Origin: Tubulanus polymorphus
Taxonomy: Eukaryota; Nemertea; Palaeonemertea; Tubulaniformes; Tubulanidae
DNA length: 64,000 nucleotides
Direction: 5' to 3'
NCBI RefSeq assembly: GCF_964204645.1
Contig: NC_134030.1
Span: 2,271,855-2,335,854 of the forward strand
In this document: positions 9,986-64,000 of the stretch, piece by piece
Numbering within the stretch: the first letter of the stretch is position 1
How the letters are laid out: the number at the start of each line of letters is the position of its first letter
Made by a program: the position numbers and the translations under genes
Notes under the pieces: model-generated
Seen by the model: the letters and a program-made list of their open reading frames with translations, nothing else
Told to the model about the DNA's origin: nothing
The model's database searches: none

Positions 9986-10348
9986 CGACTCGCAATAACT
10001 TTGGTTTAAAAGAAAAATAGAAAACGAAATAAAATGTCAATTGAAATTGCCGAGCTGTCAGATTTTTACCGTCAAGTGCTGCCCCTATATTAATCGATAG
10101 CGGCGAAAGCGTGAACTAAACAAATCGCCGTAAAATTGAAGATATATCTACTGTGGCATGCGAGTAACAGAATAGTTCACACTTTTATCGCTATTGATTA
10201 ACATAGGGGCAGCACTTGACGGCTTGCGACCTGACACAGATCTATAGTCATACTGTGGCATGCGAGTGATATTTGTTTACTTCCGTGTTTTTTTGACAGT
10301 TCTCGGAGGTGTTTTGACAGGTTTCTCTGTTTTGGACGCAGTTTAACG
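9986..10348. promoter_or_regulatory. shared divergent promoter interval of PECR and caspase A
   Basis: The two start codons lie 363 bases apart in opposite directions, so this interval should hold both promoters. Nearly half of it is a MITE (10069-10222). The word TACTGTGGCATGCGAGT occurs inside the element near 10149 and again outside it near 10253. The segment just before 10349 (TTGACAG-rich) has a counterpart just before caspase B at 18997, evidence that the duplicated block includes the proximal promoter. Confidence 0.55.
10069..10222. mobile_element. MITE in the PECR/caspase A promoter
   Basis: Long terminal inverted repeats: CCGTCAAGTGCTGCCCCTAT at the left and ATAGGGGCAGCACTTGACGG at the right, continuing inward through ATCGATAGCG-like sequence. 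No open frame. A half copy sits upstream of caspase B (18619-18700) and a larger relative at 37903-38297. Confidence 0.8.
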
Positions 10349-14954: not shown

Positions 14955-14969
14955 AAAATGTACATTCCT

Positions 14970-15265
14970 TTAACCCTTTCAGTGCGTCTACACCGCAGTG
15001 CGGTGTATAAATCAGTGATGGATTTTGCTAGTACACCGCACTGCGGTGTATTGATGTAATTAGTAATTTGTAATTATCTCTATTGAAAAATGGCAGCAAG
15101 TGTCAAACATAGTGAAATACTAGTAACTAACGATACACCGCACTGCGGTGTAGACGCACTATAGTGGTATTTCCATTGTTCAACACACTAGGGTGGAATT
15201 TTTTAGAATTTTCAAATTTTCTCCAGCACTATAGGGTATTAATTAGTCAGCACTGAAAGGGTTAA
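14970..15265. mobile_element. piggyBac-type MITE with internal palindromes
   Basis: The element is bounded by TTAA on both sides. It begins CCCTTTCAGTG and ends CACTGAAAGGG, which matches the piggyBac superfamily rule of a TTAA target and CCC/GGG termini. Inside are three copies of the 17-base palindrome ACACCGCACTGCGGTGT or a one-base variant, two of them in inverted subterminal position next to a GCGTCTA/TAGACGC match. 296 bp including both TTAA copies, no coding capacity. Located 16 bases after the caspase A stop codon, so probably within its 3' UTR. Confidence 0.85.
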
Positions 15266-17998
15266 TTGCATAATCCGTGTTTAAATGGTAAATAAAACCC
15301 AACACCATTAAAGAATAGAAAGATTGTGAAATGTTTCCTTGAGCTAGTGGGTTATCTAACTTGAACTATGTGTCTATTAATTTTCATCTGACATCAATCT
15401 TTTTTCTGATATTTTTCTTGATCTTTGAACACTTTTGGTATGGGTTCAAAAGAAAAATATCCGAAAAAGATCGATAACAGATGAACTAAACAGACAGATT
15501 AGTAGTTTATTCAACGTTTCCACGATAGCCTCGTATTCCTGAAGAGTTCTATTAGGATATAGTCTGGGCTCAAGGAAACTTTTCATACCTTATTTTTTCA
15601 TTCTCGGTGTCAGATTTTTATATCGTCTATAAATAGAATAAAACACTGCCATATATTACTTAGAATAGAATTTCATTCCTTCAGGTGAAATAATTAAACT
15701 TTTATATACATTTTATTAGAGATTTCAAATCTTATTCAGTTTTACAGATTCAGAAATTGTAAGAGGGATCGTGATGCTAATATGTTTAGTTTTCTAACTG
15801 TTCGTTCACTATTTCTATTGGTTTATGTATCGCCGGTTTGTGGAAACTAGGAACTAATTATTAAGAATAATTGATGATAATTGATTTCAATAATTGATGA
15901 TAAACATTTAGTTATTTTATTGTTATTTCATAGAATTAGAGTCAGAATGAACTGCTTAAAATTAATATGCTATTATGTATTGATTTTTGATACAATACGA
16001 CATGTAATATATCTATTTTCGTAAACCTTATGACTATAACATACAATATAATGAAAAATTTATAGTTTTGAAAGATGTTTTGAATACCTGCATGAAGAGT
16101 TGATGTTACACTTACAAATATGAATTCTATAATGATTATGATGTTTTAAAAATGAGATTGAATTATTGTGTTCTCTCTTGTAATGTTTGAATTCTATCGT
16201 TCAAAACGCTTTCTCCCCGTCTCTGTATGATGAACTAATCTTAGCTGGTAGATTTTTAGAATAAAAGTAATTGATACATTGTTTCTCTGACCCGCCCGGC
16301 CGCCTATCTACCCTGTACATGAATTTTTAAAATCATGATCAAGTTAACAATAACAGACCCGGCAGTTATAGAAATGAACTGATTACTTATTTTATTACAG
16401 TTTACAAAATGACCCGCTCGATCAGGAGAATGTATCATTTTTAGCATGTATCATTTATCGATGTATTATTTTTAGCCCTACTCATTTTGTTGGAGGAACT
16501 CCTCGATTCTACTGTCACGTTTTATAGCCTGTTCTTAAATCCACTGTTAAAACTATATTAATGTCTCAGAATCAGCTGCTTTCTATACATATATATATTA
16601 CGCAAAGGCGAAAGAAATCTTGGAATTGGATTCTAAATAAATTCCACGTATGTTTTCATGAATTATTCATATATGCTTATTTTGCTTACAATTTATTTAC
16701 AAAATGTGCTAATTTAGAATTTAGATTGTTTTGATAGAATTTTATAAAATGATTATTTTATTGATTTCGCGTATTGCTATTCTAGTTATGTATATCCCTT
16801 CAATAAACACACATTACAGGTCGCATTTAAACAAGAATTGTTGAGTTTGTTTTTTGATTTATTTTAGAGCCCGTTGATTTTATTGGATTTATGTTGATCA
16901 TAAAACTGGAAAAGACCAAATGAATATTGTGTCCGCGGTCGATTTCTCTTTTCGTCTCTTCTCTAGTCGATTTACGACCCCTGATGAGGAAGCTAACCAC
17001 GTTACAAAGGAAACCAAAAACCCCAGGAATAACGTGAACTGATAGATCGATGATAGAAATATATTGCATGTAAAAATTCATTTATTAAATTGGAAATCTT
17101 CCCTTCTATTTAGACCTAGTTCTAATCCCTTGTATAATTTCAAATGCAATACACAAAACATGAAACTACACGAGCAGAAAGTTTCTCCAAAATAATATCA
17201 TTTATTAGAACCTCTCATTGCATGATTAGTACGAAGCACATTTAAACAAACACTTTCATTTTTGTTGTTTATCAACAACATTCAAAATTACTGTTTATAA
17301 TTCATTCATTAATACATCAAGACTCAGCGAGTATTATTATCTCCCGTTTTTAGTTGCTCAATTCCTCCCGTTACTTTCAAGTAGTTTAGACTTCTCGCCT
17401 GATCCAGGTATAGATGTTTCATATTAACTGAGGCAAAAAATGATATTTCTTTCTCATTGATTTTTTTTTAAAACCTGAAATATGGATTGGATTGACCATG
17501 TTATTCATTCATTCGGACTTTAAAACGCCGTGGTTTCCACTGGGTGGGTCAGTTATCTAAATTACCACCAAATATGTCATATTTTCATATTATCTATTGA
17601 CATTTTATGTGTATTTCAAGCACGTGATGACGTAAGATATGCCATGAGGTCATTTGACCGTTTTTCAAGTTTTATTTTCGAACATTACGTTATTCAAACT
17701 TTATCTATGTTTTGTTTGTTTGTTGAAAAAAACACGGAAATGCCTTCGTTCAGACCGATAAGGGTTTCATATAAGTCAAATATTTACCCACAAACTTTAT
17801 TTGCCGACAATGAACGATAAGACTCGTGGTTTCCACCGGGTTTTTGCCAGTTATCTAAATTACCAAATATGTCCCATTTTCATATTATTTATTGGCATTT
17901 TATGTTACGTTGTTTATGTTTTTTGATGTTTGAAAACACGGAAATTCGTTTAGAGCGAGAATTAGTGACGCATAAGTCAAATATTTACAGACTTGATA

Positions 17999-18207
17999 GA
18001 ACGATAACCACACTCAAACGTGGTGAACGGATAATAAGATAAAATCCCACTATTTACAGATTAAAAGAACTTAAAAACCAGAAATTTATTTATTCAATCT
18101 AAAATATGTAAAAGACACGTCGTGTCTTTTATACATTTTAGATTGAATAAATAAATTCTGGTTTTTAAATTCTTTTAATCTGTAAATAGTGGGATTTTAT
18201 CTTATTT
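17999..18207. repeat. foldback element, family 2, centre deleted
   Basis: Left end carries CACACTCAAACGTGGTGAAC followed by ATAAGATAAAATCCCACTAT. The right arm mirrors it and ends ATAGTGGGATTTTATCTTAT. The centre is reduced to AAAAGACACGTCGTGTCTTTT, itself a palindrome. Relatives at 39338, 46068 and 47003. Confidence 0.8.
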
Positions 18208-18618
18208 ACAGACTTGATTTGCCGATAATGATTTCGAGATGTTCTTCAAAGAGAAAGGGTAAAAGAAACCCATGTATACATTTTCTTCAAAAATATTCAC
18301 CACAGGGGTTCTTATCTGAGTCTTTGGTACTGCAAAATAAAATAAGAATAAGATAAAAAGTACCAACATTGCACAAGTTCATGACACATGTACATGTACC
18401 ATTTTAGGAAAATAATGTGTATAAATTTGTTTTGGAGGACAAATTTTGGTCTCAACACCATTGTACATATGATACGATACGATAGATATGAATTTAGCTT
18501 CATCCGATTGATGATTATTGATGATAACTTCTGTTATATATTAACGTCCGTTCTATGTTATACAGTTCTTCTATGGATATTTGGATTACTTGAACTCCTA
18601 CGTAGGTACACTTATTGC

Positions 18619-18700
18619 TAAGCAGTGGCATGCGAGTAATAACTTAGTTCAGACTGTCACCGCTATCGATTAACCAAGGGGCAGCACATGGCGGTTTAAG
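18619..18700. repeat. half copy of the promoter MITE upstream of caspase B
   Basis: Matches the right half of the element at 10069-10222: GTGGCATGCGAGTAA, then CGCTATCGATTAACC, then GGGGCAGCACATGGCGG. It lies at the same relative place upstream of caspase B as the full copy upstream of caspase A. Confidence 0.7.
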
Positions 18701-18739
18701 AGATTTACTTCTTAGACTGGTTGCCAGTCTCTATGTTCA

Positions 18740-18855
18740 TGACTTGTGACACTTCACCCGTCAAGGGATTCGAACCCACTACGCTAAAGCTGTTCCCCGA
18801 ACAGCTGGTGGAAGCGAGTTCGGGAGTGATACCCCTGGCAAGCGAGGATGGACTT
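18740..18855 (-). repeat. tRNA-like or SINE fragment
   Basis: On the minus strand a perfect B box, GGTTCGAATCC, lies in GTAGTGGGTTCGAATCCC. Upstream is CCATCCTCGCTTGCCAGGGG. A related word, CCATCCTCGCTTGCCGGGG, occurs near 48140. It does not fold as a complete tRNA, so a SINE fragment is more likely than a tRNA gene. Confidence 0.4.
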
Positions 18856-18996
18856 GTGACTGCGAAAGCAATAATTTCAACAGGCAACCAGTCTAGCTTT
18901 CCGTTTAGCGTTTGAATATAAAAGCGCAGTTTACTTGGTTTCTTGACAGTTCGACTCCGAGAGGCGTTCCATGTCAGATTGTAGTTAATCTTAACG

Positions 18997-21900
18997 ATGC
19001 GAAAATACAACGAGCTTTGGAGAGATTTGCATAATGCAGCTACTGATGATGATTTTAAAAAATTGAGAGATTCATTTCGAGCTGGGCCCGGAGAAGTTCA
19101 ATTAGGGCTAACCGTGCACGATATCGACACATGTCCGAATATGTCTGAGCTGCGAAAAATACTTGCTGACAAAGGCATCATTTCAGAAGAACGCAACGAC
19201 TTCGAAACCCTGAAGACACACATGAAAGAATGCGGTTTGGTTAAGTTAGCACAGATTGTGGATAGTCACCTGCAAAAACATAGAAATAGTGAAGAGGGAG
19301 TGTCTACTGATGGCGACCGCAGCGGCATTACCAGAACAACAGGTGAGAACAATAGCCTTAATTTTTCAGACAAATTTTCTTACAACTAAATATGGTATTT
19401 ACATGAATACGTTCGTACAGTGAAAGACCGGTTTGTAAACGTATAACGAATCGGCAGAAAGTTTATTTCTGCAGTCATTAAAATGGAAAATAATTCAATC
19501 AAAACGCCCTGTTATTTCACGTCATCTCGGTTCCTCCCGGAAATCTCCAATGGTCCGTTTAGAAATATCTCCAACGGAAAAGAAAAAAATACTTTTTTGA
19601 TAGACGATCACAACTTTTTGTAAGCAGCCATGATATATTTGGTATCGTTAAAAAAGATCAACGGGAGCCTAAAATATGTCTTTTCGAATTTCTGATTTTA
19701 ATTTTTGATAGATAAATTTCGTTTTTGAATTATCATTATTAGGTTTAAGTACATTCTAATCTTATATGGTGAGGGGAGATCTGAATCCCAAACCATTCGC
19801 GATCTGTTAGACATGCTTCAAAATTGTCAGAATTAGCAAATATGACGCGTTGCACGTTTAAAAACAACTTGTAATAATTACAAGTTGTTTTTAAACGTGC
19901 AACGCGAAATAGCGTAGTTAATAAAACGTTTTGGCGATAGAATTCAATAATTCCACGAGATATTTCCCGGTTTGGATACGAAAGCACTGCAGAGATATGG
20001 ATGTCCTGCGTTGGGGAGCTACCCATTATTGCCTAGATTCGTGCCTGATAGTTGAAAAGTTAGCGCCATAGTTCATCCTTGCTTTTTTAATCCATGTTAT
20101 AAACAATCAGTTCGAAGAAAAATCTCAGAGTTGATTCGATTTATAATAATAATCATTAAAACACAGTGGTTATATATGTAATGTCTAACCTGTTAAATGT
20201 TTACTGGTTTGACGACGCGGTCATCGTCGCATTATAGGTATGTAATTATACATATAAAAAACTAGATCTATCATACTGGTGTTCATTCACCAAAAAATCA
20301 AATATTTCAGATATTCTGTCAAAAACTGTTAATTTCCCTTATCCTAAATCATGTTCGCAAAAATATAAAGCTCTTAAATATTACTAACTTCCCTATCATA
20401 AATCATCTCACAAAAATTTAGTTCTCTCAAAAATTGTAAATTTACTCTCAGGTTTTTCCTGGAAGGTAGAGTTGTCTATCAAACATAATTGTTCTGGTTT
20501 TCCGCATCGAAGTTTTCTATGAAAAGTAATTGTTTTCTGGGAACTACTTAATCATAATTTTGACACCAGAAAGATAGATTTGTTTAAATGGGCCCAAACT
20601 TTGAACATTAGATAGAGTTGTAAACAAGCTTTCTAATGGAGAAAAGAGAGTTCTGAACAAGCTCTCTAATGGAGAAAAGATAGTTCTAAAAGATAGTTCT
20701 AAACAAGCTCTCTAATGGGAGAGTTCTAAACAAGCTTTCTAATGGAGAAAAGAGAGTTCTAAACAAGCTCTCTAATGGAGAAAAGATAGTTCTAAACAAG
20801 CTCTCTAATGGAGAAAAGATAGTTCTAAACAAGCTTTCTAATGGAGAAAAGAGAGTTCTGAACAAGCTCTCTAATGGAGAAAAGATAGTTCTAAAAGATA
20901 GTTCTAAACAAGCTCTCTAATGGGAGAGTTCTAAACAAGCTTTCTAATGGAGAAAAGAGAGTTCTAAACAAGCTCTCTAATGGAGAAAAGATAGTTCTAA
21001 ACAAGCTCTCTAATGGAGAAAAGATAGTTCTAAACAAGCTCTCTAATGGAGAAAAGAGAGTTCTAAACAAGCTCTCTAATGGAGAAAAGATAGTTCTAAA
21101 CAAGCTCTCTAATGGAGAAAAGATAGTTCTAAACAAGCTTTCTAATGGCGAAAAGAGAGTTCTGAACAAGCTCTCTAATGGAGAAAAGATAGTTCTAAAA
21201 GAGAGTTCTGAACAAGCTCTCTAATGGAGAAAAGATAGTTCTAAAAGAGAGTTCTAAACAAGCTCTCTAATGGAGAAAAGAGATTTCTAAAAGAGAGTTC
21301 TAAACAAGCTCTCTAATGGGAGAGTTCTAAACAAGCTTTCTAATGGAGAAAAGAGAGTTCTAAACAAGCTCTCTAATGGAGAAAAGATAGTTCTAAACAA
21401 GCTCTCTAATGGAGAAAAGAGAGTTCTAAACAAGCTCTCTAATGGGAGAGTTCTAAACAAGCTTTCTAATGGAGAAAAGATAGTTCTAAACAAGCTCTCT
21501 AATGGAGAAAAGATAGTTCTAAACAAGCTCTCTAATGGAGAAAAGAGAGTTCTAAACAAGCTCTCTAATGGAGAAAAGAAAATATTGTGTAAGCTGCAGT
21601 AGAGGAAAAAATGCTGTACATTAAAAACAATGTATTATGAATGCTTATAATTTTTATTTGATTTGATCTGATCCGGAAAGAACATCGAAACGAATGATGT
21701 TACAACTGGTTTCAATTTGATGCTGTAGCGATCTGATCATGTCTGATTTACCGGGAATATTTGCTTTTTTAACATCGAATAAATAAATAAAGAATAACAT
21801 AAAATAAACCTTGGAAAAATCATTCCACATTCGAAGTTGTCAAATGATTACTCCAAGAATAAACTAGTAAAATGCATCAAACCCGTCCACGAATTTTCAA

Positions 21901-22499
21901 AACCAATGATATTTGCTTCAAAATACGCCTTTATGATGACAAAAATGTCCTAATTCGTCACAACACTTCAGAAGAGTCCTTTGATCCACCCCTGACCTAA
22001 AGATGACTACTAAGATATGGTCGAAATGTTGAATAAACTACACTAGCTCAAGACGTTTTGTTTCATTCTTGGTGTGAGATTCTATTTTTAGAAACCACAA
22101 TAGGTTTCGGTTTTTTTCACTTGTGATAGGGTAAGCTGTGAATCATCATAGAAGTTATCTCTTCTTTTTTCAGGTCAAACAGGTAATGAACCATTGATGG
22201 GTTTGAATGATTCCAAATCTGTAGGACCAAAACGTGAGTTCAACATTTGAGCTTGAATATAATTTGGATGATCATTTGTTAACGTTTTTATGTTTGAAAA
22301 TAACTAATATTTGTCTTAGGATTTGATATCGAATGCCATCGCCACCGAGATCAAAATCAGGAGTGTTACAAGTTTAATGAAGGATCTAAACGCGGTTTAG
22401 TTTTGATTATCAACCAGTTTACCGTAAATCGTACAGGTAAATATTTATCATTATAACAGTGATTTTATCATAAAAATGATGATGATAATTATAATATAA

Positions 22500-22531
<32 letters not shown>

Positions 22532-25500
22532 AAAAATAATAATGGATTCTCTATTCTTGATTACATTTATATATTTTCAGTTAAATCTAGTCTCACACTC
22601 GAATGTTCTTAATCAAATCTTAAAACATATCTTTTTAAACGCACCTATTTCCCATGATCTCATTATAAATTGTGCCTTTCTTACTGTTCATTTTTTTCTA
22701 TATTGTCCTCATTCTATGGTAAACATTGTACAGTGCTTATTTTCATAGTACTGCCCTATAAAAGAAAAAATTATTATTATTATCATTATCATTATATATG
22801 ATAATGATGAGCACACAGAACACATGTGTATGTTTACTTTTTTATTTCCGCTTTATTTTGGAAAATACATATTTGAGCCTAAGGACTGTACCAGTAGGCG
22901 ATATGCTCTTGCGCAAAACGTCTCAAAACCGACAGCATTTTATAGAAAATCGATTTACAACAGGTACCGAAAAAGATGAAAGTGATATAGTAGACCTGTT
23001 TGAGAATGAATTGAAGTACGAAGTAATAAAAGCACAGGATCAATCAAGAGATGCAGCGCTTAAAAAGATCGATGAAATGAAAACAAAACTCGAAGAAGGA
23101 TCGTATGATTCATTTATTTTGTTCATTCTTAGTCATGGTGATGAGGTAAGTACATGTAATTCTAATAAGGTAAATACATGTAGTTTTTATACATGTGTCT
23201 GTAACATGTCTGTCTATTTTGGTTCCCATAAACAAGTGACTGTCTTGACTAATACAAATGTAAACAAGAAAATTAATCTTAATAAATTATTTGACGCCTG
23301 CGAAAAAATGTAGAATTTCTGGGAATAGCTAATGTGGAATTGCAAATTTGAAATTCGAAGTTTTAAGAAATTTGGGGAATTATGAGGTTTGGCGATTGGG
23401 TAGATGATACAGGTCTTCGACTCTAGTAGTGGTTTAATTTTTTGTCAATAATTGATAACTTGCGACCAACTTCATTTACTTATGCCTCTAAGCTGGTCTG
23501 CTACTTCATTGCATCCATGGTTGAGGAAAGAGCATTCTGATGTCTGCTTCATCATGACTTCGAGCATATCGTGTGGCCTAGCCAGCCGGCCCGGTCCCCG
23601 GGTTTGGCTGTCACTCGATCGACCCTAGTCTTGAGTCTGGGTTGAAGTATACATTGTCATTTAAAATAACTTGTTTATGTTATTCTGTATGAATTACCCG
23701 TGTGTCTTGTACGTTTTATTTTCTTGTTTAAAATTGTATTTATTGAATTTGGGAATTTTATCCCAGAATTTCAATGTAATAAGGATCAATAAAAAATTGA
23801 ATTGAATTTTCACCTACACAGGCCTTTTTATGAACACTCGATTAGTATATTCGAGTATGCAAAACGTTTTTATGAGCATGGATTATGTCATAATCCGTCA
23901 TTTTTATGAACATTGGTTATCATAATCGATTAGCATACTCAGCATACTCGCTCGGCGAGCAAGTATGCCGATTATCTAATCCGACCGATATGGTGTTCTC
24001 GGTAGAAGTCGCTGCTGAGTAGGCCATAATTGAATAATTTCTACCTGGCGTTTTTATCAACCAACATACCCGGTTATGCTAATTGACACTAATCGGCTAT
24101 ATAATCTATATAGCTAATCTATTTCGATTTTGCTGGTTCATAAAAAGGCCTGCCATCAGAGGATGCGGAGCCGTATATGACAGCTATGCTATCATAAATT
24201 GCTAATCTCTGAAACCTGCATACGCCTAATATCGAACATATTTTCTAAAACATTTGAATTTTGAAATTATATGTTTACACATTTTCATATTTACCACTTG
24301 TAGCCGCTGATGAAATTCACGCCGGCCCTACACACATCATATATAGCTTCGTCATTCCGCCAGTTTCCCCATGTCAGGGTCTGACTTTTATATCAGACTC
24401 CCGCATCGTGTATACATCCGCCATTTAACCGAATAATCTGATTTACTTATCATTTCATTTCTATTCATGTCTGCCGCTTCTGATATAATCATACATCCTT
24501 TACTATAACAATACGTCTTCTAATGATATTCAATGCAATATAACATTTCGACGTTCAAATATAGGTCATCATATAATCACAGGAAGCCATTCTACATCTC
24601 TGTCAATAATATTTTGCCAGATAGCTTGTTTGTGTACACATAAACCTGTGACGTTTTGCACATCGATTTACGGTTGTCGTTTGTAAAATGACGCTGAATG
24701 GTTAACATTGTTCAGGTTTCATAATGGTAACGTTTTATAAGGCGTCAAAAAAACCCGCAATAGTGAAGTTTCCAGTTTTAAAGCAAAAACCAATGATTTT
24801 GACGTTTTCACATAAATTCTAAAATCATTGCTGCAGATATTCTTATTATAAAAAGGTTTGATAATTTTTGCAGGAAGGAATAATGACGGTTGAAAAAACC
24901 CCCGTAGATGGTAAAAAAGAAGAAACGGTCTGTGCTAGACTTACCATTGCTGAATTAGAAGAAAAATTGACATGTTCCAAATTAAGAAGCATGACAGGTC
25001 AGAATAAAATCTTTGCTGCCAATTTCTGGTTGAAAATTTTATAATTTCCACATTAGACGCTGCTACACAACAGTAACCAAATGCTATTGAATCAAATAGA
25101 TCCTTCTCATATCTAATTGGGTTTCAAAAATGCGTGTATATCAAAAGTATATAGGTTCATACAATTATTAAGTATCTAATTACTTTTATGAATAGTAAAT
25201 ACACTATATTATTATTAACTAAGGTTTTTTTTTCATTTTACTCAGCTCATGGGAGTGATGATGATGATGATTGTAATTTTAGGCAAACCGAAGATGATTC
25301 TAGTTCAAGCTTGTCGCGGTAGAAAGGATATGCTTGAAGCCACTGAAAAAGATAGTGAATGCGCAACTGATGAAATTCATGATGAAATGCCGCTATCCAT
25401 TCCCGATGAAGCTGATTTTCTGACTGCTTACTCCCAGAGAATTAGTAAATACATAAGTCAATCCCCTATATACAGCCCTCCCATTTACCGCCAGTCCCGC

Positions 25501-26131
25501 CCACCGCTAGGTATTCTCAATGTACATCTCAATATAAATATAAATACATACCGCCAAAATCGTTCAGCACCAAAGTGGGCGGTATATTGGAGGTAGACAG
25601 TATACATTATGGAAGCGTCCTGGGGATATCAAGAAAAATTTTTGTTCAAAGAGTTTGTAACTCATAATAAACTAGTTTTCTTAGTTAAATGCGATTTTCG
25701 AGGTTAATTCCGAGTTTGTAACTAGGAATAAACCTCCAACCTCGAAAATCACATTTAACTGAGAAAACTAGTTTATTCCTAGTTACAAACTCGGAATTAA
25801 CCTCGAAAATCTTTTTGAAATAGATATCCCCGGGACGCTTCCGTACACAAGAATGATTATAATAATTTCAGGAAATTAATTTTTTCGGAATTGAGAGTTG
25901 CTTTGTTTATTTCTAGATTATTATAGTCTTCGAGACAGAAACCAGGGAACTTGGTTCATTCAGAAGTTTGTGGAAGTTTTGAAGGAAAATAAACATCGTC
26001 ATGTATCGGACATACTGACAACAGTGAACAGGAGGGTCGCCGAGCATAGAACAGCTAAAGGAGACAAACAGATGCCTGTGTTTATGTCATCTTTGAGAAA
26101 GCTTTTCTACTTTGTTAAACCGACTGAGTAG
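18997..26131 (+). CDS. caspase B: one death fold plus caspase domain
   Basis: Model join(18997..19342,22174..22233,22320..22436,22964..23145,24874..24997,25283..25444,25917..26131), 1206 nt, 401 aa, all in phase. One DED-like fold at residues about 4-88 (DDFKKLRDSFRAG) is followed by a short linker and a caspase domain from about residue 148 (SKRGLVLIINQF). Catalytic His232 (ILSHGD) and Cys287 (QACRG) are intact. IPDEADFLTAYSQ, LRDRNQGTWFIQKF with the S1 Arg, and KQMPVFMSSLRKLF are also present. The exon that would encode the second death fold is broken (19785-21777). Exon 1 ends and exon 3 starts in phase 1, so direct splicing keeps the frame. The intron is about 2.8 kb and holds a minisatellite. 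The enzyme looks catalytically competent. It is likely to differ from caspase A in how it is recruited. Confidence 0.93.
19846..19906. repeat. 61-bp palindrome at the inversion junction
   Basis: Two exact 29-base arms, starting CGCGTTGCACGTTTAAAAAC, are separated by the three bases TAA. The left arm includes exon-derived GTTGCACG, so the palindrome sits exactly where the caspase B exon stops being colinear with caspase A. Confidence 0.9.
20615..21579. repeat. 33-bp minisatellite in a caspase B intron
   Basis: About 28 units built on AGTTCTAAACAAGCTCTCTA followed by ATGGAGAAAAGAT. Common unit length is 33 bases, with shorter variants that lack part of the GGAGAAAAGA tail, and alternation of AGAT/AGAG and CTCTC/CTTTC. 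Because 33 is a multiple of three, the minus strand stays open as an 11-residue repeat (FRTLFSPLESL). This has no start context or conservation to suggest a gene. Confidence 0.95.
22500..22531. repeat. (ATG)n microsatellite in a caspase B intron
   Basis: About ten ATG triplets in a row, next to further GAT/ATA-rich sequence. The run of Met codons it creates is not a gene. Confidence 0.9.
23580..23815 (+). repeat. 3' end of a non-LTR retroelement-like repeat
   Basis: The piece ends AAGGATCAATAAAAAATTGA with a short (AATTG)n-type tail. A similar 3' end, AAGGATCAATAAAGTTATTT followed by a (GAATTT)n tail, lies on the minus strand near 47430-47480. Short-tandem tails of this kind are typical of some LINE/SINE families. 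No reverse transcriptase is visible. Confidence 0.4.
23819..24152. mobile_element. MITE in caspase B intron 5
   Basis: Inverted ends CAGGCCTTTTTATGAAC and GTTCATAAAAAGGCCTG, 334 bp, with several internal GAGTATGC/ATTCGAGT words. Non-coding. CAGG/CCTG ends would fit several DNA-transposon groups. Confidence 0.75.
25611..25842. mobile_element. foldback MITE in the last caspase B intron
   Basis: Terminal repeats GGAAGCGTCCTGGGGATATC and GATATCCCCGGGACGCTTCC. Inside is a second long inverted repeat built on GAGGTTAATTCCGAGTTTGT. Non-coding. Confidence 0.75.
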
Positions 26132-28332: not shown

Positions 28333-31300
28333 ATGGCTGAAAAACAAGACGCGAAAGAGAAAGAGAGTTTAAAAACGGCGGCTCTTGATTTCGCTAATGA
28401 AACAAACTTCCACGGAGTGAAATACATCGCGCATTCGCCAACCTACTTCACTAGGTAAGTAGCTCATTCTCCAACCTACTTCAGCGCTAGGTAAGTGATC
28501 TTAAATTAGGTGTATATTTTTTATTAACTGGTTCGATGTTAATGAACGAAACTGCTGGGCCAATAAAAGAAGACGCTATACCCAAACTTAGATGCGAGCA
28601 ATGGAATCTTATGAATGGCATATTTATCGGACTTGGATTGTATATCGATGCCGTCATTTTTCTAGATTCATGTACTTTGTATTTCTAAATCACTTATAAA
28701 TATTTGTGATGCGATAAGAAAACGTGAAATCCAAGTCATTCGTCTGATAATTAGTAATTAGGTTATTAAAAGTAGAAATATTCGGACGCTCGCTACCATA
28801 TTTCTTCGATGTAAAATGAAATAAAAATTAACCCGAAATTCATAATTCTGTTCCGCTTCACATTTCATTTTAGACTGACGCGGATAGAAACCACTCGAAA
28901 TATTCATAATTTTGGGATTCGATGATTTGTATTTTAGTTATGAGGATAATATTCTACAACAATATTTTGTACAGCGTTGAATTCGGGTTTAGAAGGAACT
29001 GTCATAGAAATAGTAATCATTCCTGAAAAGTTCAATATTTAAACAAGTAAAACTTATAACACTATATAATTAAGATTTCGCGCCCTCTATTATCCTATTG
29101 TTGATACTGCAACCCCTGAGCTGCTGCTGGCAATCAACAGCTCAATAATAACCGACTCAAAAGGAAATTTATAAGGTGCTCCACGGACGATCGGTCTTAT
29201 ATCTTACATATAGACACATTCCCATTGAGGCTTTTATAATATGATTCCTTGTTTCTGCGCTCTGCTGAGTTTAAAACTTGACGCGGCAGGCCACCTATCT
29301 ACCCTGTACATACATTACCTTTTTTGAAATTGTGATCAATTCTACCAACAGACCCGGAAGCTAGAATTGAACTGGACCCAGTTCCACAGTTGTGAGTTAA
29401 AGTTAACTCTGAGTTAAGGTTAGTTCATTTTCAATGTTTTAACCCAGAGTCAAATCTTAACTCAGAACTGTGGAACTGGACCCTGATTACTAATTCTATC
29501 ATATTTACAAAAATGACCCGGCCGCTGCGGAGAAAAAAGGCATCATTTTTGATTTCTACTCGGGCACAGACGGCTTTTCTATTTCTGAGGGACTTGGTCC
29601 TTAGTGAGAATAAAGACGCATGAATTACATCAGAGTTCATTGTTTATGACCGTATCTAGAAAACCCTGTCCATATTTCGGGTTGGTTTAATATCAAATCA
29701 ATTAACTTTAACCTTTGAACCTTTGAACCACTGATTCCGGGTATTCAAATCTTCACGAACCATGAATTGTAGAACTGCGACATGTTGTTCGGATGATTGT
29801 AAAGTATCTATTCTAATTGTAATATATTTCAGGTTGATTTGGTTGATTTTATTTTTGGGTATGACTGGCGTGCTTTGTTATCAGATATATGACCGTACCA
29901 CGTATTATCTGTCGTGGCCTGTAACTTCTGATATAACAGTGGGAAAACCAGAAACAGGAGAACTCTCATTCCCTGCTGTTACTATCTGTAACACTAACAC
30001 TTTCAGGTAGCCACTTTATTTCTTTTACGAATGTTGAATTAGGTAAAATAATTAGTAAAATGTAGAACTGTAGACTCAGAACGTTAGCGAACAGGAAATA
30101 TCTATCAACGATATTAGTGTCAGAAATCTTTTTGAATTTTCATCGGCGAATAATTCATTGACTTTATCAAAACGATACAATTCAAAACATTGATTCGATT
30201 TGTTACAAGTAGATTTTATGATAAAATTGTAAATAAAATAGACTATGATTTTCCTCACGATTTTTTAAGAATTAAAACCTATAAAACTGTCTTCGTTTAA
30301 AGGTTATCTGATGTAGAGGCGGCCGGGTTTTATGAACAGATATCAGGATTTTACAGCGATGAAACCTACAACTCTTCATCATCGACTGTCGTACAAATGG
30401 ATTTACGTTATTTGATGTTAAACATGAGCCACAGAATGAAAGATTCAATCAAAGAAGCGTCGTTTCAATCTGAATATTTAGATACGAATAATTTCACAGC
30501 AATATTCACTGATTACGGCTTGTGTTACAGTTTTAACATCGACCAATCACGAAACGTTTCCTCATACGGAACGGGTAGGTTTTAGAAATTTGAATATCAA
30601 GAACAAAAATGTTTATTTCGAAAGGGAATCACAGGTGAAAAATCAATATTGATATAACCAAAAATACACAAAGAGGATCTTCTTTGTGTATTCTTATAGA
30701 ACGTATACCCGTAAAACTGTGTCAGAATTCGCCAAGTCAAAGCTAGAAAAAATATTTACTATACGTGGGATTCGAACCCGATGTGATGCGATGACAACAA
30801 TCCTAACCCTCAACAACGTCCGATGAGGGCTTCTAAAAAACGAGGAATATTATCTCATTTAGAATCAATTACGGATAAAATGAGAGTAAAGATAAAAAGG
30901 TGGCAAAATAGGAAGTACATGGAATTGATAGATTTTTATAAAATTCGCACATGCAAGGAAGGACGAGTCTAGCGCGCTGACCATTCGGCCACAGCCCATC
31001 AGCACTTTACTAACGATAGAGGGTAGCCATAATAGAAAGAACAAATGATAAAACACTAATCTATCTAATAGATATGCAAATAGAAAAATGCTAAATGAAG
31101 TTTAATGAATATTCATTAGGTATCGCATTCGGATTGAGATTATTGATAAATATGGAAACGTATCAGACAATGAGCGGTGAACACAAGTCATCAGGATTAC
31201 GAGTTCTTGTTCACGATAAAAACGAAGTTCCTCGAGTCAAAAACCTGGGACTTTTTGTGCCGGCAAAAATGATGGCCGTTATTGGTATCAATACACTACA

Positions 31301-34300
31301 GGTAAGGATGAACTTAACATTGTTATTGAAAGTGATTTGTTTTTAAAAACTTGAAGAATGAAATCGTCATTTGTTTTGAGAATTCCTTTAGAAGTGCTGT
31401 CTATCATCTGGGGCCAGTTGCACAATCGCGCAAAGTTGTGCAATCTCTTAAAGCGGATCTTAAGTTGTTAGATTGGCTATAGAACTTAGATAGTCTTAGA
31501 CTGGTCTTAAATCTAGTTTAGAATACTTAAACGTGTGATGGGAAGTCAAAACAAGAAAAACATAAATTGATTTTTCAGACGACTGAACTGCCATATCCTC
31601 ACGGTACTTGTAAACATGGCGTCGCTCCGTTGGAAACGTGTTTAAGACAATGTCACATTAGAAAAGCTGCCGATGTTTGTCAGTGTTTGCCTTATTACGC
31701 GGAACAAAATCTATTCGATGGATTGCCTTATTGTAGCATGATCAAAAACCGTGACTGTATGCAACTAGAACTGTGTACGCTTTATTCATTCAAACATTTA
31801 TTCATATTTCTATCTGTTCAACTATGTAAAGCTACACTTGAACCTCCGTAACGTATCTCCATGAATCGCTGAATAACCATCAGATCAGATTTATAAATCG
31901 CGTGCAAAGTGAAACTAAACGATTTGTGTTATGTACTTAGCAACGACACAGTAAAAATAGAACGATTTTAGTAGAATACACAAAATCAATATTCTGTCAG
32001 TCTGTTAAACTTCTTTTGAATCTCCATAACAATTTCACCATGAATCACTAATTGTAATCATCGCTATGTTTTACTATCAGAACAGATACATTTGTACACG
32101 GAACTTCGGACATAGTTACTATATGATTTGCATTAACATCACTGTGTTCAAAGTTACAGTAAAATAGAAAAAGTTTGGTAGATTAACAAGTTTTAGATTT
32201 AATTTCATTAAATGTTTTTTTTGTTATTCATTTCAGCCGAAGTAAAACGGAATTCATCAATTTGTAATTCACAATGTTCAATTCCTTGTCAGAAAATCTC
32301 ATACGAATCGCAAATCAGTTATTCGTCGCTATCGTCTTATATGGCTAAAACAATATCGGCTAAATACAGTCATGAAGAAACTCTGGTCTCCGACTATCAG
32401 ACTTCAATGGACGCCATTCATCGGGTCGACCCGAAAATAAAAACCCAAGACCTTGAGATAATCTCACAATTCAATAACGATTTGGTCTGCGTTAAATCAC
32501 AGATAAATGATTTGGTAACATTTTTGAAAGGTAAATATGATAGAGTCGTTGATGCGTCAATTGATGTTTATGACGCGTTATGGACCATAGTCGACGAATT
32601 GGAAACAACCAAGAAAAACTATATGAAAGTATCAGCGGTTGATCGAGTTGAACCGATGATTCTAACTCCGTTAGCCGAATTCAGACAAGCCTTAAAGTTA
32701 GAAGTTCCAGTGCTGTTAGATGTGATGCGAGATTATTTGCTATCACAAACAGGAACGAGAGATGAATATCTGGAGAGCTCCGAAAATGTATTCGATATTT
32801 TTGAACGAGTTTCCGACGTTCAACTCCGAGTTTATAATGAATTCAATGACGTCTATTTGAATTTGGTGGAAGAAAACGGAAAATCAGAAGACGCCGACCC
32901 CATGAGGCGTTTTCCTGCTCAGTTATTATCTGACGAACTTGGAAAGATTAAAGAAACTCTGGACCAACTATCGGATAGGACTGACGCTATGGCCGCGGGT
33001 TCAAAGACAACTACTGAGAAAATCCAGGCTTTCGACTCTCAACCACCGACCGCGTACGAATGGACAGAGTTTGAAAATTCGATTCAAAACTACACGAAAT
33101 ACGCGAGCGATATCGGCGAAACAGCTTTAAACCTTTACGATCAACTCGGGAATATTCTTACCAAAGTGCAAAACATGGTGGCTAAAACTAACACTCATCA
33201 GTTAGCTATAGACTTCGCCTACACTAAATTGCTGAATGCTCTAGAAGAGATTCAACCAAGTCAACCCGATCTACCCATTGATATTGATATCGATCTGAAA
33301 ATAACGATGGACAAAGCGGACAAAAACTTCATGCGACCTTTTCAAGATGTTACCAACAACGGTGACGTCATAGGTAGAATGACAGACGTTCTAGAAGCGT
33401 GTGAGAATATGTATTATATTGATGACTTGCTGTGGGATCTGAACGCATTCTTAACGAATGACTTTCCTAAAATCACCTCGGCCTATCAGGAACTTAAAAA
33501 GTAACGTATATTAAAATTTGTATTCACTTGAGTTTCATTTTTCCCATGTAACAATGCTGTTTTCTGGCTTTCGGCAATTTTGAATTAAAAAATCCTAAGG
33601 TTAGAAAATCAAGATCATTATTCTTTCATTTAACGTTTATCAGCTACTGAATCTTTGATACAGGGCTTTTCAATCCGCTGATGTATACTTGAATGATAAA
33701 GTACTTTCGACATTTCCATCAACAAGTGAAATAGTAACTCGAATCATGCCGACAATAGAAAGCCACGTTAGCAAAACCAAAGCCCAATCTAAACGCGTTA
33801 TCGAAATGGCTCGTGAGCTGAAGTCAAAGCACAGAAAAGTAACTGAATCAAGAATTAAACTGATTGAACACATGGCAGAATTCAACGAATCGATACAAAT
33901 CGATGACTCCTTCATCCAGTAAGCGAGAGTTGGGGATATTTCAAAAAGCAACAAAATTAAAATCTACTAGTTTTCTCTTGATTAAGACCTGTCTCATTTC
34001 TTCCTCAATTCAACTTTCAGGAACAATTTTGTTTATGTGAACGTATTCTTAAGAACGATGGAAATTCAGAAATTGTCGAAATCGAAAGCGTACTCTTGGT
34101 TCTCATTGGTTTGTAAGTAACAAGAACAAATAAACATTTCTTTCTTTTCTATTAGGTTTAGTAAATATACACCAATCAGTGATTGATATCATCTCTACGT
34201 TGTTATCTATATATGAAATGCATGACCAATCAGTGATTGAAGTTAACTTCCGATTGTTGAATACATATTTGATTCATGTTTCATGGTTTATTGAAATTAA

Positions 34301-34776
34301 TCTATTTTACGATTCAATTCAGTTTTCATTAGAACTATATTCGAGTAATAAACCATTGGATAAAGAGAATCCCAAACTCAAAAAAGGAAAACGAGACCAA
34401 AAAGGTTTTGTTAAGTTAATGATTCATTTTCCACCTTTTGATTATATCAGATATTTTCATGAATATTGAGATGAATATTGAAAAGTATCCGATATATAAC
34501 CATTAACTAAAATAAACCATTTCTTTCTTGTTTTACTTTGCTGAGTTTGTGATTTTCTATGTTATATTTGAGTAATATTTGATGTTGTATTGAACAGGTG
34601 ATATTGGTGGAACTGCCGGATTGTATCTCGGTGCGTCTTTACTGGCGCTCGTTGAGGTTTTATTTTTCGTCGGGAATCAAGTGATCAATTCATTCACGCG
34701 AGCCGGAAACAAACCGAACGAAGTTAACCAACATCCGGACTATGTTGTGAGAAAGACCCAGGTGATCGCCATGTAA
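28333..34776 (+). CDS. DEG/ENaC sodium channel subunit with a large extracellular helical insertion
   Basis: Model join(28333..28454,29833..30006,30303..30574,31120..31301,31579..31774,32237..33500,33664..33918,34021..34112,34598..34776), 2736 nt, 911 aa, all junctions in phase. In order: the HG gating motif (NETNFHGVKYI), TM1 (LIWLILFLGMTGVLCYQIY), FPAVTICNTNTFR, DYGLCYSFN, GLRLLIN and LRVLVHD, then Cys-rich CKHGVAPLETCLRQC and VCQCLPYY, then CQKISYESQISY. TM2 has the selectivity stretch CDIGGTAGLYLGAS near 853-866. Typical family members have roughly 450-700 residues. Here about 450 extra residues (near 371-822) lie between the thumb-like helix (SYMAKTISAKY) and the strand before TM2 (NNFVYVNVFL). 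The insertion is charged, helix-prone and almost Cys-free. The gate, pore and Cys scaffold look complete, so the channel should work. The stimulus (peptide, acid or force) cannot be read from sequence. Confidence 0.95.
29372..29483. repeat. foldback element, family 3, in DEG/ENaC intron 1
   Basis: Left end GGACCCAGTTCCACAGTTGT and right end CTGTGGAACTGGACCCT. Diverged pieces of the family lie near 51640-51680, 53755-53825 and 60180-60360. Confidence 0.7.
30763..31013 (-). repeat. tRNA-like halves separated by about 190 bp
   Basis: On the minus strand, GCTGTGGCCGAATGGTCAGC (a Ser/Leu-type D-arm with A box) lies near 31000. GGGTTCGAATCCCAC (T-arm with B box) lies near 30770. Between them is AT-rich sequence too long for a tRNA intron or variable arm. 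It could be a tRNA-derived SINE or a tRNA pseudogene split by an insertion. It lies in an intron of the DEG/ENaC gene. Confidence 0.4.
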
Positions 34777-60415: not shown

Positions 60416-63400
60416 TTAAGTTTTGAATGCGACTACCGGTGTTTTACTGATGACGTCATCCTCCGGATGTTGGTTAACTTCGTTCTGTTTGTTTCCGGTT
60501 CGCGTGAATGAATTGATCACTTGATTCCCGACGAAAAATAAAACTTCTACGAGCGCCAGTAAAGACGCACCGAGATACAATCCGGCAGTTCCACCAATAT
60601 CACCTGTACAATACAACATCAAACATTACACAAATATAACATTTTGACGTTTTTACTTTATCATAGTTATCTTCAGGAATATCGGATACTTTCCTATCTC
60701 AATATTCATGAAAATATCTAATATAATCAAAAGATGGAAAATGAATCATTAACTAAACAAAACCTTTTAGGTCTCGTTTTCCTTTTCTGAGTTTGGGATT
60801 CTCTTTATCCAATGGTTTATTACTCGAATATAGTTCTAATGAAAACTGAATTGAATCGTAAAATAAATTCATTTCAATAATCCATGAAACATGAACCAAA
60901 TATAGATTTAACAATCTCGAGTTGGTATAAATCACTGATTGGTCATGTATTTCATATATGGATAACAACCTTGAGATGATATCAATCACTGATTGGTGAT
61001 GTATTAACTAAACCTAATTTAGATTAAGAAAGAAATGTTTATTTGTTCTTGTTACTTACAAACCAATGAGAACCAAGAGTACGCTTCCGATTTCGACAAT
61101 TTCTGAATTTCCATCGTTCTAAAGAATACGTTCACATAAACAAAGTTGTTCCTGAAAGTTGAATTTAGGAAAAAATCAGACAGGTCTTAATCTGCTATAA
61201 AGAGTTCATGATAGAACTAGAAAATGAATCTGTGGGGGATGAAAGAGGCGCAACCGGCTGCACCCCTCAGACAGGCTGTAGCCCACCTCCTTATGAAATG
61301 TGTAGCCTGTACGCGTGCCCACCCTCAGATGAACCACTCTCAGTAACCCGTCTCCTCCCCCTGAGAAAATCTACAGGCCCGTTGCTACCGCGAAGAAGAA
61401 GAATGACAAAAATATACAAAACATGACGATGACGACGACGATGATGATATCGAAGATGATGATGATGAAGATGACGAAGACGTTATGAAACTAAAAATGA
61501 GCATGAAGTGTATAAGATGAAAATAAAGATACAAACTATTGCTTACTGAATGAAAGTGTCATCAATTTGTATCGAGTTTTCAAACTTTAGCATGTGTTCC
61601 ATCAGTTTGTTTTTCGATTCGACACTTTTTCTGTGGTATTCTTTCAGTTCCAGGTCGATCTTCAAAGCATCTTCGGTTTGTTGCCGCAACGTGATCATGT
61701 TAGTCGTTATCGTCGGTATAATCTTCGTCACTGGGTCACTCGTCGACGGAAATGTTGATTGAACATTCTGAGCCACATACTCGAACGCCGATTGAAAAGT
61801 TCTGTAGAGAAAAATAATAAATTAATTTGAAAAAATTTCTTTATTAGAAATTATAAATTCATTTGTTCACGCAAACGGGAGACACACCACGTGCGATTCT
61901 ATGATAAACATTTTTACAATTAAAAAACGCTCATATTATCATATTATATATATATATTGATAACTAATAATTTATATTTTATGAAATTGTATACGTTATG
62001 AGGAGAGAATCCCACAATGATAATAAAAAGTCCGAAAATGAAACTTCGAGATAGTAGTTTATTTCAACGTTTCGACTATATCCTAATAGTCATCTTCAGG
62101 AATAATAGTCATCTTCATTATTCCTGAAGATGACTATTAGGATATAGTCGAAACGTTGAAATAAACTACTATCTCGAAGTTTCATTTTCGGACTTTTTAT
62201 TATCATTGTGGGATTCTCTCCTCATCGCGTCAACACGGATATAGTGTTCTACCAATCGTGTATACGTTACTTTTCTAGTTCCACGAATGCCGACGAGATT
62301 TTCGGGAAATCGTTAGATGAAAATTCACCCAAAATCCACAGCAGGTCATCGACGTAAAACATACTATGATTGCAAACTTTTAGAACGTCTGTCATTCTCC
62401 CTATGACGTGACCGTTATTGGTTACATTTTGAAAAGGTCGTAAGAAGTTTTTGTCCGCGTCGTCCATCATCTTTTTCAGATCGATATCACTCGATTGATC
62501 GGGTTGAATTTCTTCTAGAGCATTTGTCAATTTAGTGTAGGCGAAGTCTATAGACAATTGATGAGTGTTAGTTTTAGCCACCATGTTTTGCACTTTGGTA
62601 AGAATATTCCCGAGTTGATCGTAAAGGTTTAAAGCGGTTTCGCCGATATCGCTCGCGTATTTCGTGTAGTTTTGAATCGAATTTTCAAACTCTGTCCATT
62701 CGTACGCGGTCGGTGGTTTAGAGTCGAAATTCTGGATTTGTTGAATTGTATTGTCTGCCGCCCAAGCGATATCGTCGCTCCTTAACAAAAGTTGGTCTAA
62801 AGTGTCTTTTATCTTTCCGAGTTCGTCGGATAGAATCGTCGCTGGAAAACGTCTCAGAGGATCTTCGGTATCGTCGTCTGGTTTCTCGTTCTCTTCTTTC
62901 AAACTCAAATAGACGTCGAAGAATTCGTAATAAACTCGATATTGAACGTCGGAAACTCGATCGAAAATTTCGTAAACTTCACCGGCGCTCGCAATGTAGT
63001 CATCTTTCGGTTTTGACCTCGACAACAGGTAATCTCGCATTATATCTAAATGCGGACGAACTTCTAACTTTAAGGCTTGTCTGAATTCGGCTAACGGAGT
63101 TAGAATCATCGGTTCAATTCGATCAACCGCTGATACTTTCAAATAGTTTTTCTTGGTTTTTTCCAATTCTTCCACAATGGTGTAAAATGCATTGTATACA
63201 TCTATTGACGCATTGTCGACCACATCAATATTAGCTTTCAGAAACGTCGACAAAGCATTTATATGTGATTTGGTATCAACCAAATCGTTGTTGAATTTTG
63301 CGATTATCTTTAGGTCTTGGGTTTTTATTTTCGGGTCGACCCGATGAATGGCGTCCATTGAAGTCTGATAGTCGGAGACCAGAGTTTCTTCATGACTGTA

Positions 63401-64000
63401 TCTAGCCGATATGGTTTTAGCCATATAAGACGATAGCGACGAATAACTAATTTGCGATTCGTATGAGATTTTCTGACAAGGAATTGAACATTGTGAATTA
63501 CAAATTGATGAATTCCTTTTTACTTTGGCTGAAATGAATAACAAAAAAACATTTAATGAAATTAAATCTAAAACTTGTTAATCTACCAAACTTTTTCTAT
63601 TTTACTGTAACTTTGAACACAGTAATGTTAATGCAAATCATATAGTAACTATGTCCGAAGTTCCGTGTACAAATGTAACTGATAGTAAAACATAGCAATG
63701 ATAAAAATAGTGATTCAGAGCGATAGTGTTATGAAGATTCAAAAGCTGTTTTACACACGTAGTTTAACAGACAGACAGAATTTTGATTTTTTGTATTCTA
63801 CTTAAATCGTTCCATTTTACTGTGTCATTGTTTAGTTCAGTACGCAACTTGTTTAGTTTTACTTTGCACGCGATTTGTAAATCTGATCTGCAAGTTATTC
63901 AGCGATTCATGGAGATACGTTATGGAGGTTCAAGTGTAGCTTTACATAGTTGAACAGATAGAAATATGAATAAATGTTTGACTGAATAAAACGTACACAG
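60416..64000 (-). CDS. second DEG/ENaC channel paralogue, 3' part, runs off the window
   Basis: Model complement(join(60416..60603,61060..61151,61547..61801,62271..63528,63997..64000)), 1797 nt, 598 aa visible, in phase. The last four bases of the window are the end of the exon equal to exon 5 of the copy at 28333, so four and a fraction upstream exons lie outside. The visible part has CQKISYESQISY, the large helical insertion, NNFVYVNVFLRTMEIQ, and TM2 with CDIGGTAGLYLGAS. Exon borders and phases equal those of the first copy. Introns are also alike, apart from a foldback element at 61999-62222 and a GAT/GAC-rich stretch near 61430-61490. The two channel genes point towards each other, 25.6 kb apart. 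The C-terminal tail differs (EDDVISKTPVVAFKT). Confidence 0.95.
61430..61482. repeat. GAT/GAC-rich microsatellite in a DEG/ENaC intron
   Basis: Imperfect run of ATGACGACGACGATGATGAT-type triplets. Absent from the first channel copy. Confidence 0.8.
61999..62222. repeat. long foldback element in a DEG/ENaC intron
   Basis: Nearly perfect arms of about 105 bases, outer ends GAGAGAATCCCACAATGATA and TATCATTGTGGGATTCTCTC. Each arm contains CCTGAAGATGACTATTAGGA then TATAGTCGAAACGTTG, in opposite orientation. Absent from the first channel copy, so inserted after the duplication. Confidence 0.9.

Follow-up and report, generated by a model that had tools for sequence, protein, structure and literature searches.

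The channel gene in the middle of this stretch of the Tubulanus polymorphus genome raises the question of what several hundred extra residues may be doing in the extracellular part of a DEG/ENaC channel. The window, by which we mean the whole 64,000-nucleotide stretch of DNA that was analysed, holds a gene, here called gene A, for which our splice model joined nine exons through GT..AG junctions into a frame of 911 residues with a single terminal stop (Table 1). The original prediction of a DEG/ENaC channel at this place was borne out by the ASC family of Pfam (PF00858), which matched with 251 bits (cut-off 23.6) in two stretches, the better one covering residues 20-359, and by alignments of the protein without its insert (449 residues) with ASIC5 over residues 17-415 (E 6e-42) and with an ASIC1 over residues 6-427 (E 2e-37). 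TM1 and TM2 surround one large ectodomain, and TM2 carries a GxS filter in the form GAS, which is also present in a second copy of the gene, copy B. Judged from its sequence, gene A is an intact DEG/ENaC channel gene. Exon 5 encodes a Cys-rich part that we take, by ASIC homology, to be the thumb region; three of the four donors tried for this exon were in frame (31750, 31756 and 31774), the insert was identical with all three, and we adopted 31774, which copy B shares.

Table 1. Coordinates of gene A, its insert and the part of copy B that lies in the window.
Feature	Position	Strand	Basis
Gene A, DEG/ENaC channel	28333..34776	+	splice model; Pfam ASC E 3.6e-74
Gene A exon 1	28333-28454	+	splice model
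Gene A exon 2, TM1 and ectodomain start	29833..30006	+	splice model, alignment with ASICs
Gene A exon 3	30303-30574	+	splice model
Gene A exon 4	31120-31301	+	splice model
Gene A exon 5, Cys-rich part	31579..31774	+	splice model, ASIC alignment
Gene A exon 6	32237-33500	+	splice model
Conserved channel segment of exon 6, immediately preceding the insert: CxxxC, palm strand and alpha6 (knuckle helix)	32275..32367	+	ASIC alignment
Insert, exon 6 portion (SHEETL...QELK)	32368..33500	+	splice model
Gene A exon 7 = insert, exon 7 portion, 85 codons, phase-symmetric	33664..33918	+	splice model
Gene A exon 8, NNFVYVNVFL..., palm strand(s) before TM2	34021..34112	+	splice model, ASIC alignment
Gene A exon 9, DIGG..., TM2 with GAS selectivity-filter motif, C terminus	34598..34776	+	splice model, ASIC alignment
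Copy B exon 6, knuckle segment and insert	62271..63528	-	sequence comparison with A, joined model
Copy B exon 7, insert	61547..61801	-	sequence comparison with A, joined model
Copy B exon 8	61060..61151	-	coordinates converted from L005
Copy B exon 9 to stop	60416..60603	-	joined model

The extra residues form one block of 463 aa (residues 360-822), encoded by exon 7 and by most of exon 6, which first encodes a CxxxC..ISY..LS..MAK channel stretch. The block contains 2 Cys, 28% D/E/K/R and 30% L/I/V/M/F, in keeping with the earlier description of about 450 charged, helix-rich and nearly Cys-free extracellular residues, and a scan of Kyte-Doolittle 19-mers found no transmembrane-grade segment in it, its most hydrophobic 19-mer scoring 0.87 vs 2.1 for the best of the whole protein. 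Its position had to be revised. The insert had been placed at the ASIC thumb helix, through the SYMAKTISAKY region, but in the ASIC1 alignment YMAKTI of gene A pairs with YLAKKF, and NNFVYVNVFLRTM lies opposite GENILVLDIFFEVL. We take YMAKTI/YLAKKF to be the first knuckle helix (alpha6 in ASIC nomenclature) and the second pair to be the strand that comes after alpha7 and precedes the beta11-beta12 linker and TM2; the thumb presumably lies earlier, in the Cys-rich part. In the part of PMC6827283 used here, the knuckle is described as a pair of helices in close linkage and the thumb as a pair joined by disulfides, and with YMAKTI read as knuckle alpha6 these descriptions put the insert at the knuckle turn and not in the thumb. 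Hence, the arm would leave from the finger-knuckle corner, rather than from the thumb base at a point coupled to the gate, as had been proposed. The short knuckle turn that usually leads from alpha6 to the last palm strands in DEG/ENaC channels is absent from gene A, the 463 residues standing in its place. As the same portion of PMC6827283 describes this turn as variable within the family, the long insert reads as the mark of a variant and does not exclude membership. Very probably, then, gene A encodes a helix-rich domain between the knuckle segment and the last palm strands before TM2.

The second copy was expected to keep the insert, and it does: copy B, whose exons 1-5 lie past the window end in an adjoining stretch (L005), was completed outside the window into 910 stop-free codons, with a stop two codons further on and splice junctions that match those of gene A. 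Intron 6 of copy B is 469 bp long vs 163 bp in copy A and contains, at 61988-62235, a near-perfect inverted repeat of two 119-nt arms, 97% complementary and 10 nt apart, which looks like a foldback element.

Two copies proved too narrow a count. Genome searches with the exon 6 part of A (20 matches at E up to 1) and with three other members, together with a reading of further ASC loci, yielded 25 loci, among those fetched, with a long insert after the knuckle segment: A, B, L010-L016, L017-L024, L025-L027, L033, L038, L040, L041 and L042 (L045 being counted with L016, of which it forms the other part). Nine of them form an array at C6:7.106-7.177 Mb and the others are dispersed. The strand that follows the insert was located in 23 of the 25, the exceptions being the fetched stretches of L025 and L040, and insert and conserved channel segment share one exon in 24; in L041 the shared exon holds the first ~113 codons of the insert. 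Each of the 18 loci examined for frames had one open frame of 392-602 aa. After subtraction of the 31-residue knuckle segment, the insert measures ~440-470 aa in 15 full-length single-exon members and ~500 aa in L033 and L038, while the identity of the A insert to members outside its own group is 17-29%; pairwise identity among 20 members has a median of 20% and a minimum of 12.5%, some untrimmed flanks being included. These loci show that the predicted insert-bearing channels form an expanded DEG/ENaC subfamily in the Tubulanus polymorphus genome. Two members, L010 (C4:8.83 Mb) and L011 (C6:9.87 Mb), are near-identical insert-bearing copies on different contigs (insert dS 0.038); by this similarity they are a recent dispersed duplication.

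Eight DEG/ENaC loci lack the insert. In L031, L032, L034 and L037 the knuckle and last-strand matches are 137-321 bp apart, in L029 and one L030 gene the gap is ~90-110 bp as judged from matches and open reading frames, and L001 and L028 read straight through. In L036 and L044 the match coordinates are too close together for an insert of this size, an open Ser/Thr-rich stretch occupies that part of L039 instead, and L035 and L043 were assigned to neither class. Open Ser/Thr/Pro-rich, mucin-like stretches, which are candidate coding sequence only, lie near ectodomain exons at L039:4264-4932 and L044:3004-3468 (- strand).

A tree of six concatenated channel-core segments placed all 25 insert loci on one side of a branch, opposite 10 loci labelled as without insert, with support of 85/80 (not starred) and in 88% of 200 bootstrap trees, the insert-less rows sitting on long branches that drew a program warning. 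Three of the ten (L036, L039 and L044) carried the label although the knuckle segment was not located in them, and the three L030 genes, L035 and L043 had been left out beforehand or by the length filter. A subset of 22 insert loci was supported at 100/99. Insert profiles agreed between the A group and the nine-gene array (E 3e-9 over 306 columns) and between L033/L038 and L040 (E 3e-6 over 341 columns). Similarity was weak or absent between the main family and L033/L038 (P 0.007), L041 (P 0.001 and 0.004) and L040 (0.53), between the A group and C11 (P 0.005) and between the array and C11 (0.05), six controls giving 0.09-0.39. Common ancestry of all inserts was thus not recovered from the insert sequence itself across the deepest groups, and the case for homology there comes mainly from position and from the channel tree. 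A single origin of the insert is favoured by these data, though not proven.

The search for a donor or relative of the insert bore out the earlier remark that no known family was recognised, none being named with confidence in Pfam or among PDB sequences. A Pfam search of gene A with its insert gave nothing above cut-off inside the insert, coiled-coil families included. Over 20 members, for which 25 of 38 families were shown, no family was recognised with confidence and no four-helix-bundle sensor domain was named; among the matches listed were ASC in 11 members, owing to the knuckle segment attached to the insert, DUF1722 in 7 members (E 1.5e-4 at best), Baculo_PEP_C in a single member (E 2.6e-5) and, in one or two members each, families that are mostly helical or coiled-coil by name. 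PDB sequence and profile searches with the insert returned no clear relative (best profile E 0.0013), and a scan of viral contigs for the insert gave 46 pattern matches, of which none was confirmed. In four protein searches of its own genome, made exon by exon and not exhaustive, no free-standing copy of the insert was seen; all matches fell at channel loci except one at C2:3956549, which contains stop codons (E 0.013). Among markers of taxonomic placement, COX1 yielded no match, and neither the annelid linker nor the molluscan haemocyanin families were detected, a result that the control genomes shared.

Is there nevertheless a common fold? The inserts of the subfamily have strong alpha-helical periodicity: across 20 members, the family-mean hydropathy power peaked at 100 degrees (15.9), with 12.0 at 110 degrees and 7.9 at 90 degrees, and stayed within 2.4-5.5 at the 14 remaining angles. 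AlphaFold2 predictions, both weak and covering the exon 6 part only, were all-helical for A with B as the sole other row (mean pLDDT 51, pTM 0.40; in ten-residue blocks, 73-85 over ~131-190 and 221-290 and below 50 over 1-123 and 301-408) and gave much the same helix borders in the middle, at lower confidence (mean pLDDT 44), with B as the first row. An antiparallel up-and-down four-helix bundle is predicted, with modest confidence, for part of the insert (residues 116-304, pLDDT mostly 70-85 in one model and 57-69 in the other). Against PDB structures, residues 116-304 scored Z 10.4-14.4 in the 50 matches listed, which include many unrelated bundles: designed proteins, the vinculin tail, FAT and bacterial (chemoreceptor) ligand-binding domains. 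As helical bundles match widely, a high Z may mean shared arrangement only and is weak evidence. No single fold family was favoured by the matches listed, the effective comparison being confined to residues 116-304, and Foldseek with the predicted model gave no match at E 0.001 or better. Compared on its own with databases in view of a possible helical-bundle or spectrin-like fold, as had been suggested, the insert matched no sequence family with confidence, and its predicted residues 116-304 may share with known bundles an arrangement only. Internal repeats were likewise rejected: profile windows matched well only where they overlapped, and non-overlapping ones stayed at a probability of 3% or less.

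We quantified the divergence of insert and channel exons separately by pairwise NG86 dN/dS over 45 pairs. Insert ratios ranged from 0.27 to 0.68, below 1 in all 45 pairs, and channel ratios from 0.10 to 0.32, with the exception of L010-L011 (0.70 on very few changes); both dN and dN/dS of the insert exceeded those of the channel exons in 44 pairs. In the nine-gene array, pN/pS was 0.24 in columns 1-30 (nearly all knuckle segment), 0.38 in columns 31-60 and 0.34 in the last 7 columns, vs 0.49-0.80 in the 14 intervening windows, which shows stronger constraint at the two ends of the insert than in its middle. Positive selection on the insert was supported by no group average (1 of 51 window-by-group cells exceeded 1, at 1.18 with 3 sequences), and the higher dN of the arm may therefore be mere relaxed constraint.

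Synonymous changes set arm and core apart as well. Between A and B, dS was 0.066 in the channel and 0.467 in the insert, and between L026 and L042 it was 0.047 and 0.207; the contrast was small for A or B vs L010 or L011 (0.39-0.44 and 0.54-0.59) and absent for L010-L011 (0.028 and 0.038). At the nucleotide level, A and B show 90-93% identity in introns 2, 4, 5 and 8, 92% in intron 1 over the 202 alignable bases of 1378, and 91-99.5% in channel exons 1-5, 8 and 9, compared to 83-87% for the whole of exon 6 (67 to 98% in 100-bp windows within the insert) and 61% ungapped for exon 7, or 80% over 217 of 255 bases in a gap-tolerant alignment. Introns 3, 6 and 7 (84-86% of bases aligned, large length differences) are no more alike than the insert exon; with introns 6 and 7 also low, the steep fall in A/B identity includes the introns that flank exon 7. 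Such a pattern would be expected if gene conversion had acted on most of the channel core and older variation had been retained in the insert. Positions 33037-33236 inside the insert, 94-98% identical between A and B, are likely a conversion tract, so that the insert would not be wholly shielded.

A diversified arm on a pore that stays much the same suggests that an old channel has acquired a new device for sensing or recognition, and we assign a probability of roughly 45% to the reading that the arm is a diversified extracellular sensing or recognition module at the finger-knuckle corner. This reading draws on the variability of the arm relative to the more constant pore and on the fact that the same corner binds ligand in a relative: in FaNaC1, according to the portion of PMC11026163 used here, the FMRFamide site lies between finger helices and the alpha6 knuckle helix of the neighbouring subunit. 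The bacterial chemoreceptor ligand-binding domains among the structural matches of the predicted bundle point the same way, though weakly. That the arm is diversified between copies argues more for recognition than for a force tether or an oligomer clamp. From the topology, we infer that each trimer would bear three extracellular arms, each carried by the two knuckle helices and rising at the finger-knuckle corner. A ligand or partner would bind to the variable middle of the arm, binding would shift the better-conserved arm base at the knuckle, and the movement of the base would pass via the finger of the neighbouring subunit to gate the channel up or down. Paralogues could in this way sense different stimuli through one common pore type.

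Some of the same observations would suit an assembly or heteromer-specificity clamp, in which the arms of matched subunits pair above the channel and set which paralogues co-assemble. DEG/ENaC channels assemble as trimers, paralogues are many, arms have diverged while pores are more alike, and amphipathic helices, as the hydropathy periodicity indicates, are suited to pairing. We nonetheless consider a clamp unlikely, as no coiled-coil family rose above cut-off in the Pfam search of gene A with its insert, and a constrained arm base alone is no sign of pairing. Less likely again is a mechanical tether, by which the arm would anchor the channel in matrix, mucus or cuticle, pulling on the knuckle under force. 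For a tether, constancy across paralogues would be expected, yet arm dN exceeds that of the channel exons in all but one pair, and neither a known anchor domain (Pfam) nor an internal repeat was found. The idea has its attractions in the long predicted helices and in a likeness to the palm and knuckle glycans to which such a role is ascribed in alpha-ENaC. Two glycosylated asparagines matter in ENaC force sensing, as stated in the part of the review PMC10148893 used here, and a paper cited there puts them, by its title, in palm and knuckle. The inserts of 20 members contain 104 N-glycosylation sequons vs 78 expected from shuffles.

We rate lower still the possibility that the arm is a passive spacer, inserted long ago at a surface turn that tolerates it and kept open only loosely. 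Knuckle-turn insertions are tolerated in placozoan channels, according to the excerpt of PMC6827283 drawn on here, and a dN/dS raised relative to the channel in 44 of 45 pairs is what loose constraint would give; but the ratio stays below 1 in every pair, a length of ~440-500 aa is kept in full-length single-exon members despite 17-29% identity to A outside its group, every locus examined keeps its one open frame, and constraint in the array is strongest over the first 60 and last 7 columns. That the long exon is a gene-model artefact, part of another transcript and spliced out of the channel, is very improbable, because, although the phase symmetry of exon 7 (255 nt) would allow its loss without a frameshift, skipping of exon 6 (1264 nt) would shift the frame and break the channel, insert and channel segment share an exon in 24 of 25 loci (with ~113 codons in L041), and the junctions recur in copy B.

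How far does a sensing arm at the knuckle depart from known channels? The ASICs (ASIC1, ASIC2 and ASIC5; PDB 6ave, 6l6p and 9mky) resemble gene A in their two TM segments, Cys-rich part, DIGG motif and GAS filter, but have a short knuckle turn where gene A has its 463 residues. The wrist histidine H73 of mASIC1, named as critical for proton activation in the consulted portion of PMC10507113, is not conserved in gene A, where YYLSWPV aligns with ASIC1 YYFHYHH. FaNaC FMRFamide-gated sodium channels (PDB 8on7, 7yvb) share the ectodomain plan of gene A, and their peptide pocket, formed by finger and knuckle alpha6, is the corner at which the arm of gene A would be rooted; the sections of PMC11026163 at hand stress variability in the finger and mention no domain inserted between knuckle and palm strand. 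Much variation of DEG/ENaC ectodomains in the finger is also noted in the available part of PMC6827283, which further describes extra residues between the two knuckle helices of Trichoplax TadNaC, the same place as the gene A insert. In that part, the TadNaC insertions are predicted loops in most TadNaCs, whereas here a ~440-500 aa helical stretch recurs at 25 loci. Bacterial four-helix-bundle sensors (PcaY_PP, Vc1313) and the vinculin, FAT and talin bundles resemble the predicted insert part (VIA Z 10.6-13) with no sequence relation listed, which speaks of shared arrangement and not of kinship. Drosophila pickpocket channels have chemosensory roles. They also represent a large lineage-specific DEG/ENaC expansion, as here, and the passages of PMC3583452 and PMC12304301 considered mention no comparable inserted helical domain.

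A published channel with the same insertion, which would have countered the claim of a new layout, was not found among the titles and abstract openings of open-licence PMC papers, where placozoan knuckle loops (PMC6827283) come closest. Hence, variation at the knuckle is already known, and a large subfamily with a domain-sized helical insert would be a new variant of DEG/ENaC. More tentatively than the sensing module itself, we propose a new DEG/ENaC receptor class, in which a conversion-homogenised pore is combined with a paralogue-specific helical knuckle arm into a chemosensory or self/non-self repertoire. If a homogenised pore with a diversified arm were general, the subfamily would be a candidate receptor repertoire, and we know of no sodium channel with such a constant pore and diversified arm. 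A whole domain rooted in the knuckle would offer a new handle on how extracellular events reach the DEG/ENaC gate, and with 25 loci the subfamily is large enough for a direct test of whether the arm decides the stimulus.

The remainder of the window holds further features. Next to the channel gene, at 10235-25593, lie pieces of caspase genes, probably arranged in tandem, with Peptidase_C14 matches at 14233, 22762 and 25219; a death-effector domain matched weakly at 10868 (E 2.4e-4, below the Pfam cut-off). Long tandem arrays occupy 58779-59616 (34-bp unit x 24) and 20614-21579 (33-bp unit x 29), their frames being open by repetition. At 1441-2778, one open frame of 446 aa encodes a serpin (Pfam E 2.3e-54).
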